The position numbers and the translations under genes are program-made. DNA of 46,376 bases, taken from contig JAJQCO010000003.1 in the NCBI GenBank assembly GCA_021202655.1, positions 10,316-56,691 of the forward strand, in the 5' to 3' direction. Below are positions 76 to 1,441 of this stretch, in pieces. Origin of the DNA: Clostridiales bacterium. Lineage in GTDB: Bacteria; Bacillota; Clostridia; Lachnospirales; Lachnospiraceae. Position 1 is the stretch's first letter. Each line of letters opens with the position of its first letter. Under the pieces are notes generated by a model. The model saw nothing but the letters and a program-made list of their open reading frames with translations. It was not told the DNA's origin and did not search any database.

Positions 76-498
76 ATGCAGCTTGAGGACAGTATTCATT
101 TTCTGCTCACGGTCTCTCAGCATACGGTCTTTCAGCGACTGAGCCGGGAGCTTACTCCATATGATATCACCCCGTCTCAGTATGGCGTCTTAAGCTGTCT
201 CTGGTCCGCCGGAGGCGTCTGCTTTCCGAGGCAGATCGCAGAGACGCTTAGTCTGGAGACGTCTACGGTATCGGGAATCCTTGACCGGATGCAGCGGAAG
301 GAGCTGATCACGCGCGGGATCAATCAGGACAACCGCCGGGAGATTTTTGTGTCTATGACGGAAAAGGGAGAAGCGTTAAGAGAACCGCTTCAGAAGATCG
401 TTGAGAATTTAAACGACGAAATGCTGCAGGGGTTTACCGAGGAGGAACGCGCGTTCCTGAAAAAGGCGTTGCTTCGCATGGCGGAGAGGGAAGCCTGA
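76..498 (+). CDS. MarR family winged-helix transcriptional regulator
   Basis: 140 aa; MarR-like wHTH pattern (ITPSQYGVLSCLWSAGG...IAETLSLETSTVSGILDRMQRKELITRGINQDNRREIFVSMTEKG). Confidence 0.9.
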   Translation: MQLEDSIHFLLTVSQHTVFQRLSRELTPYDITPSQYGVLSCLWSAGGVCFPRQIAETLSLETSTVSGILDRMQRKELITRGINQDNRREIFVSMTEKGEALREPLQKIVENLNDEMLQGFTEEERAFLKKALLRMAEREA

Positions 499-529
499 AA
501 AATATCTGAAATATTTATAGTAAACGACT

Positions 530-733
530 ATGCGCCGCTTACGCGGCGCGCCACCACGTATGAAAGTCAGCTGCTTCGCGCTTACGCGCTCCCGCAGCTG
601 CCACCGGTATTCGCAATCCGCTCGTTTTTCTTCGAAAAACGGCTACTTGCTCATACCGGCTTGGTTGCCAAATGTCTGTACGTCCTTGCGTGCGAGCACG
701 CAGTCCGTACAGCCGCTTGGCAACACTTTCATA
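530..733. repeat. Multi-hairpin structured intergenic element (cloverleaf-like fold)
   Basis: Outer stem TATGAAAGT (559-567)/ACTTTCATA (725-733) encloses three hairpins: CAGCTGC/GCAGCTG (568-574/594-600), CCGGTAT/ATACCGG (604-610/653-659), GTTGCCAA/TTGGCAAC (664-671/717-724). It is preceded by hairpin GCGCCGCTTACGCGGCGC. Confidence 0.75.
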
Positions 734-835
734 GTAAATTTTCATTCAGAGGCATTGTGAAATGAAGTCGCTTATGGTAAACTGTGGAATAGCGGAGGCG
801 CGGGTGCGCCCTGGATTCTGGCGGGAGGAAGTTCC

Positions 836-1441
836 ATGATAGCGATTGTTGATTATGATGCGGGAAATCTGAAAAGTGTGGAGAAAGCGCTGACAGCTCT
901 GGGAGAACAGCCGACGGTCACGCGGGACGGGGAGACGATCCTTGCCGCGGACAAGGTGATTCTGCCGGGCGTCGGCGCTTTTGGCGATGCGATGGGGCGT
1001 CTGCGCCAGTATGGGCTGGTGGATGTGCTTCGCGGGGTGGCCGCGAAGGGAACGCCGTTTCTCGGGATCTGTCTGGGGCTGCAGCTTCTGTTTGAGCGCA
1101 GCGACGAGAGCGACGGCGTGGAGGGACTGGGGATTCTGCCGGGTGAGATTCTGAGGATCCCGGAATGTCCGGGCATGAAGATCCCGCATATGGGATGGAA
1201 TTCCATCGACATCCGTCCGGGCAGCCGACTGTTTTCGGGGATCCCGAACGGCTCTTATGTATATTTTGTTCATTCGTATTATCTGAAGGCGTCGGAGCCG
1301 GAGATTGTGGCCGCGACGACGGAATATATCACGCACATTCACGCGGCGGTGGAGCGGGGCAATGTCTTTGCAACCCAGTTTCATCCGGAGAAGAGCAGTG
1401 AGATCGGGCTTCAGATCCTGAAAAATTTCATCAGCCTGTAA
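836..1441 (+). CDS. hisH: Imidazole glycerol phosphate synthase subunit HisH
   Basis: Class I glutamine amidotransferase motifs ([32 protein letters not shown]); adjacent to hisF. Confidence 0.97.

Follow-up and report, generated by a model that had tools for sequence, protein, structure and literature searches.

Clostridiales-1 (RF01699) originates from Weinberg et al., 2010 (PMC2864571), where its table row gives it as a likely RNA, not cis-regulatory and not a switch, from Clostridiales and the human gut, and assigns the family no function. Rfam files it under the type 'Gene; sRNA'. In the openly accessible literature, no subsequent work on what it does turned up, nor, with subscription papers and supplements outside the scope of the search, did any description of it as mobile. 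Correia/NEMIS, ERIC, YPAL, and other bacterial MITEs are small, non-coding, hairpin-forming sequences that generate duplications and usually lie between genes; in most of those reviewed, a single long stem is combined with inverted repeats that end in TA (PMC2229807, PMC10969869). In the Bacillus cereus group, the bcr1–bcr3 repeats (cited in PMC3446304) are likewise dispersed intergenic MITE-like repeats, other bcr families (bcr10 and bcr18) show conservation of secondary structure, and roughly half of the bcr copies overall are found in transcripts (PMC3446304). QMITE2 of Coxiella burnetii is 150–190 bp long, has direct repeats of 7–11 nt that are unique to each copy, folds stably, occurs in large and small versions, and includes a copy that was first detected as an sRNA (PMC5896051).

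We investigated an element in the window (the whole 46,376-nucleotide stretch of DNA analyzed here) that lies between a gene for a MarR-family regulator (76–498, plus strand; Pfam PF01047, E = 4.1e-13) and hisH (836–1441, plus strand; Pfam GATase, 1.4e-23, and His_biosynth, 5.8e-87), the latter followed by hisF (1468–2232). A cmscan of the window aligned positions 561–731 on the minus strand with the whole RF01699 model (1–166) at 119.7 bits (E = 7.5e-27; curated gathering cut-off, 48 bits). The element shares with the family described by Weinberg et al., 2010, its sequence and fold over the 166-position model, its strand, and its host group (Clostridiales, human gut). Since this match exists, the structured RNA motif is already known, and the novelty as an RNA that the initial annotation had made conditional on there being no Rfam match is gone. 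That annotation had left open a structured RNA, a MITE- or REP-like element, or a DNA cruciform; the RNA motif proved to be in Rfam already, and a MITE-like nature is supported for the family. Matches to mir-214 and mir-138 were far below their cut-offs and were taken as chance. What is new is the nature of the family, that is, its reclassification as a mobile element: we conclude that the window element is very probably a copy of such a transposable element, MITE-like and non-autonomous, with Clostridiales-1 as its core.

The fold of the window copy is as the initial annotation had drawn it from the letters, a closed multi-branched palindrome. Positions 559–733 form a closed four-way structure, all arms of the stem, hairpins, and nested palindromes were found where they had been placed, and a separate hairpin precedes them (arms 532–538/543–549). 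The suggested RNAfold run on positions 500–760 gave −105.4 kcal/mol, compared with −72.0 ± 5.1 for 200 dinucleotide shuffles (z = −6.6; 0/200 as low). The open reading frames across the palindrome, suspected of being spurious, have no Pfam match. Two points needed correction. The Rfam family is read here from the minus strand, and the unit is longer than had been thought, as it includes the 532–549 hairpin and lies between direct repeats at 517–524 and 731–738.

Read in the sense of the family, the outer stem P1 has its 5' arm at 725–733 (ACTTTCATA on the plus strand) and its 3' arm at 559–567 (TATGAAAGT on the plus strand); the two form a perfect (100%) 9-bp inverted repeat, and across genera both arms vary with the pairing retained. 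Hairpin 1 (664–724, minus strand; arms 664–682/706–724) carries a conserved apical loop region, which reads TGC-TCGC-ACGC in the window copy and has a nearly invariant consensus of GCTTGC. Hairpin 2 (604–659, minus strand) has a variable tip at 623–641 and conserved, purine-rich internal loops (TGAGCAAGTAG / GCGGATTGCGAAT), and hairpin 3 (568–600, minus strand) has an internal loop, GGGAG / GCGAAGC, within which some sister copies harbor a nested hairpin of ~50 nt. Nested arms in the window copy are CGTTTTTC/GAAAAACG and TGCGTGC/GCACGCA. Comparison of the flanks of copies added a 3' tail (525–558, minus strand) with its own hairpin, GCGCCGC/GCGGCGC, at 532–549; this tail and hairpin are common to many copies in genome G000 and its relatives, and tail matches of ~50 nt occur in several genomes. 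Both ends of the unit carry ATAGTAAA (on the minus strand, TTTACTAT) as a terminal direct repeat, at 731–738 on the 5' side and at 517–524 on the 3' side.

Copies of Clostridiales-1 are numerous and unevenly distributed. The source genome has 16 above the cut-off, and 24 species of the genus show between 0 and 47 matches per genome (E ≤ 0.001, weak matches included), 14 of them with a match over the cut-off. The family is carried by 65 of 150 genus representatives of the host family Lachnospiraceae, several of which have at least 17 copies, and by 6 of 194 genomes of the class (five from the same family, the source genome counted, and one from a second family of the same order). Pattern matches in public genomes were, by title, to Lachnospiraceae, Butyrivibrio, Agathobacter, Blautia, Lachnospira, and uncultured Clostridia. 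In one 3.7-Mb genome, 83 right ends were found within at most two mismatches; the reversed control pattern gave 0. Tandem copies occur. Most scored sister copies (29/38) are intergenic, with no uniform orientation to their neighbors. A search of plasmids returned nothing similar, and one of phages returned only a single partial match of 45 bp. Clostridiales-1 is short, non-coding, and dispersed in multiple copies, as MITEs are.

Orthologous loci were then compared between species rather than strains, with diverged flanks around the empty sites. HisH is present in 24/24 genomes of the genus searched, and none of the relatives examined has the element upstream of hisH, among them the nearest, G007, whose HisH is 89% identical. 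The upstream neighbor of hisH in the relatives is not the MarR gene, so this is not a base-exact empty site. G009 has upstream of hisH a different and smaller element, an independent remnant of what we call subfamily 2 below. Elsewhere, 1.1 Mb of G007 was compared, and at the positions of two copies, L008 and L012, and of a shorter related element, L169, the conserved flanks enclose no counterpart; a copy in G006 is absent from G008, G000, and G007. At L008, and only there, a near-exact left boundary was obtained, with homology to the empty site in G007 stopping at TTTAC. As a separate observation, G006 and G008 (L202, L203) have a large inverted repeat (GTCCCTGCGAGGAAAGAATATCC...) upstream of hisH, the inner part of which stands in opposite orientations in these two close species; it is possibly an invertible segment.

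The copies appear to fall into two subfamilies. The commoner, subfamily 2, starts with GATACCAGGGTC and ends with AACATC after an extra 3' hairpin (GATACC...AACATC), and its opposite ends form terminal inverted repeats, TGATACCAGGGTCAAAAGG / TGATGTTGGGGTCAAAAGG. A perfect 7-nt flanking duplication, of the kind expected of a MITE target site, was found in 22 of 60 copies; when left and right sides were re-paired between copies in 1000 trials, the mean was 0.6 and the maximum 4 matches of 7 nt. The duplication consensus is ATNNNAT. The same ends bound a full form (~190–200 bp), truncated forms, and a minimal 38-bp hairpin, and both the deletion derivatives and the 38-bp hairpins are themselves flanked by duplications, for example ATCTTAT and ATCTCAAT. 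Many subfamily 2 copies in G017 (L065, L070, L144, L146, L147, L155) share a target context around AAATGACATTG, which is either a preferred target or another repeat used as a landing site.

The family is thus dispersed, multicopy, polymorphic, and absent at orthologous loci, and its commonest subfamily is bounded by 7-nt duplications. Because copy number varies, copies are missing at orthologous loci, duplications of 7 nt flank the ends, and size variants exist, we consider the family mobile and MITE-like. A transposase supplied in trans would recognize the hairpin-forming ends, cut or copy the unit, and insert it, with a stagger of 7 nt, at AT-rich sites that are mostly intergenic.

A partner that might supply this activity was sought in several ways, in a search that was not exhaustive. 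No autonomous element with the same inverted repeats was present in 20 regions around single ends in G017 and G019; these regions held deletion derivatives, minimal hairpins, or remnants, and no transposase lay between the ends. The right ends followed up in G061, G133, and G109 were of the same kinds and had no partner. The fetched loci, G007 stretches left out, yielded no convincing case of a transposase with a pair of ends. Y1 transposases (REP/IS605) were rejected as partners, as none of ten Y1 loci, some of them cut by contig ends, had these ends, and RF01699 copies occur in G009, G015, and G016, which gave no Y1 match.

The window copy belongs to subfamily 1, which starts with TTTACTAT-GAAAGT and ends with ...GTTTACTAT; the left-end motif TTTACTAT is kept in most copies. 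Terminal inversion in this subfamily is confined to the inner 9-bp stem, the outermost ends being direct repeats, and the window copy is flanked by the 8-nt direct repeat ATAGTAAA. Identical left and right 7-mers were found in 4 of 38 copies, compared with 3.3 by re-pairing; since this is at the level of the control, a target duplication is not demonstrated for subfamily 1. Its left flank, TTTAC(TAT), is conserved, and the sequence beyond the right-end TTTAC is variable.

These features raise the possibility that the two subfamilies move differently, subfamily 1 by a single-strand Y1 mechanism (IS200/IS605 or REP/RAYT-like) and subfamily 2 by a different, duplicating transposase. On such a scheme, subfamily 1 would insert 3' of TTTAC and itself end in TTTAC without duplicating its target, in keeping with the conserved left flank, the variable sequence after the right end, the control-level 7-mer matches, the end of homology at TTTAC in L008, and the presence of Y1 genes in 17 of 24 genomes of the genus. 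Nevertheless, the examined Y1 loci lack these ends, G009 carries several subfamily 1 copies without a Y1 match (G015 and G016 likewise have none), the source genome has only Y1 fragments, and TTACTAT also fits an (A/T)TNNNAT version of the subfamily 2 duplication pattern. We regard a separate Y1 route for subfamily 1 as a possible but less likely option.

Several other small repeats were noted alongside subfamily 1. In the source genome, L164, L166, L167, L169, L170, L172, L174, and L184 are shorter elements that lack the Clostridiales-1 core but share these ends (TTTACTATGAAAGTCCAAG ... CATAGCTGTTTAC); they make up a separate, apparently mobile hairpin family. Another small hairpin repeat, about ATAAGTGAGACAGGAAATCTGTGATTTCCGTAGTCGAACTTAT, lies within L013, L014, L016, L180, L183, and L190 of the source genome, and in L013, L014, and L016 it sits inside hairpin 3 of the core, right after the GGGA/GCGA/ACGA motif, which suggests an element that inserts specifically into hairpin loops. 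Lastly, the site of a G006 copy is occupied in G008 (C41, near 17300; L218) by a different stretch with a near-perfect palindrome, TTATAGTAAACGGCAAATTTATTTGTCGTTTACTATAA, which is similar to paired right ends of subfamily 1.

We next considered the fold itself. Covariation, a check that the initial annotation had proposed, turned out to be very strong. In 30 copies, mostly one per genus and drawn from across the host family, 97.8% of 1004 cells of the consensus fold are paired, and 30 of 34 consensus pairs show double changes. The covariation score of 0.598 exceeds that of all 500 shuffles (0.202 ± 0.011) and of every slid alignment (≤0.122), so the RF01699 fold is supported by covariation. 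The sense strand of the family folds better than the antisense strand in 65 of 65 copies tested, probably owing to the purine-rich conserved internal loops on that strand. G-U pairs are rare for an RNA: they make up 1.2% of helix pairs in the family and, by minimum free energy folding, 3.8% on the sense and 2.5% on the antisense strand, compared with 13% in 15 tRNAs of a relative treated by the same method. Selection or repair at the level of DNA hairpins would fit the rarity of wobbles together with the perfect double changes, and the strand asymmetry would fit a single strand, RNA or DNA, being the one recognized; between RNA and DNA, these data do not decide.

It could be argued from this fold that RF01699 is a trans-acting small RNA gene, or another structured non-coding RNA, with paralogous copies whose dispersal is incidental. 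The extreme covariation, the conserved unpaired positions, the consistently better folding of the sense strand, and the table row of Weinberg et al., 2010 (PMC2864571), with its likely RNA lacking a cis-regulatory role, are all in line with such a gene, and the strong covariation and conserved unpaired purines do exceed the needs of the typical, decaying interior of a MITE. However, the variable copy number, the copies missing at orthologous loci, the 7-nt duplications, and the 38-bp minimal versions without any core speak against a gene of this kind; G-U pairs are rare for an RNA, and the window copy has neither promoter nor terminator consensus around it. We judge an RNA gene of this kind highly improbable. 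Instead of a fixed sRNA gene, RF01699 resembles in its behavior a MITE-like element that is non-autonomous and whose fold covaries strongly. For such an element, retention of the three-hairpin core would most likely reflect its use by the mobility machinery as a folded, single-stranded substrate, or else the shielding of neighboring genes by an RNA.

The position of the window copy also bears on a possible effect in cis. One end of the element lies ~17–20 bp upstream of a conserved promoter-like motif of hisH (TTGTGAAAT ... TATGGTAAACT, 755–783, plus strand), which was assigned as a promoter by inspection; a promoter consensus scan around the window copy, including 755–783, found none, and neither a terminator consensus nor a U-tract was found there. 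The TTGTGAAAT...TATGGTAAACT motif is kept upstream of hisH in many relatives of the genus without the element, and it is intact here, as though a subfamily 1 copy had landed upstream of it without breaking it. The −10-like part of this motif is similar to the terminal repeat ATAGTAAA of the element. A copy placed in this way, between the end of one gene and the promoter-like motif of the next, might act on transcripts between marR and hisH as a boundary, an RNase III site, or an mRNA stabilizer that was spread by transposition. Transcripts of MITEs are reported to act so in other bacteria (PMC2229807, PMC10969869), and the intergenic location of most scored sister copies would suit this role. 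Against it stand the missing terminator U-tract, the lack of one orientation relative to neighbors, and relatives that manage without the element at hisH; we think such a role unlikely.

Seen as a MITE-like element, Clostridiales-1 can be set beside the systems described above, and its working may be likened to that of the reviewed MITEs, most of all QMITE2, with which it shares a comparable length, direct repeats that differ from copy to copy, a stable fold, large and small versions, and a history of first detection as an sRNA. QMITE2 differs in belonging to another phylum, in having a GTAG REP as the target of IS1111, and in a core not described as covarying across genera, the comparison being one of descriptions only. 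The bcr repeats, a further parallel and also compared by description, are dispersed between genes as well but come from one species group, whereas Clostridiales-1 spans many genera of one family. Like the reviewed MITEs, Clostridiales-1 is a small non-coding sequence that forms hairpins, generates duplications, and usually lies between genes; unlike most of them, it has a multibranched core, a separate end hairpin, and ATNNNAT duplications. Against the filing of RF01699 as an sRNA gene, without a function in the table row of Weinberg et al., 2010, its duplications, size variants, copy-number variation, and absence from orthologous loci point to a mobile element. A bolder view, to which we give little weight, is that the core is itself a working nucleic-acid device. 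As a structured RNA or a folded strand of DNA, it would guide, license, or regulate the transposition of its own element or have been exapted by hosts, and it would have been kept across dozens of genera as mobile ends of at least two kinds were exchanged around it.

A curated Rfam sRNA family that is annotated in many gut bacterial genomes therefore appears to be mobile, and its copies need a different annotation. Mobility would explain the patchy distribution of Clostridiales-1, and strains might be told apart by its copies. A puzzle comes with this view, in that throughout a bacterial family a non-coding element keeps a multibranched, G-U-poor fold and conserved purine loops that are specific to one strand.
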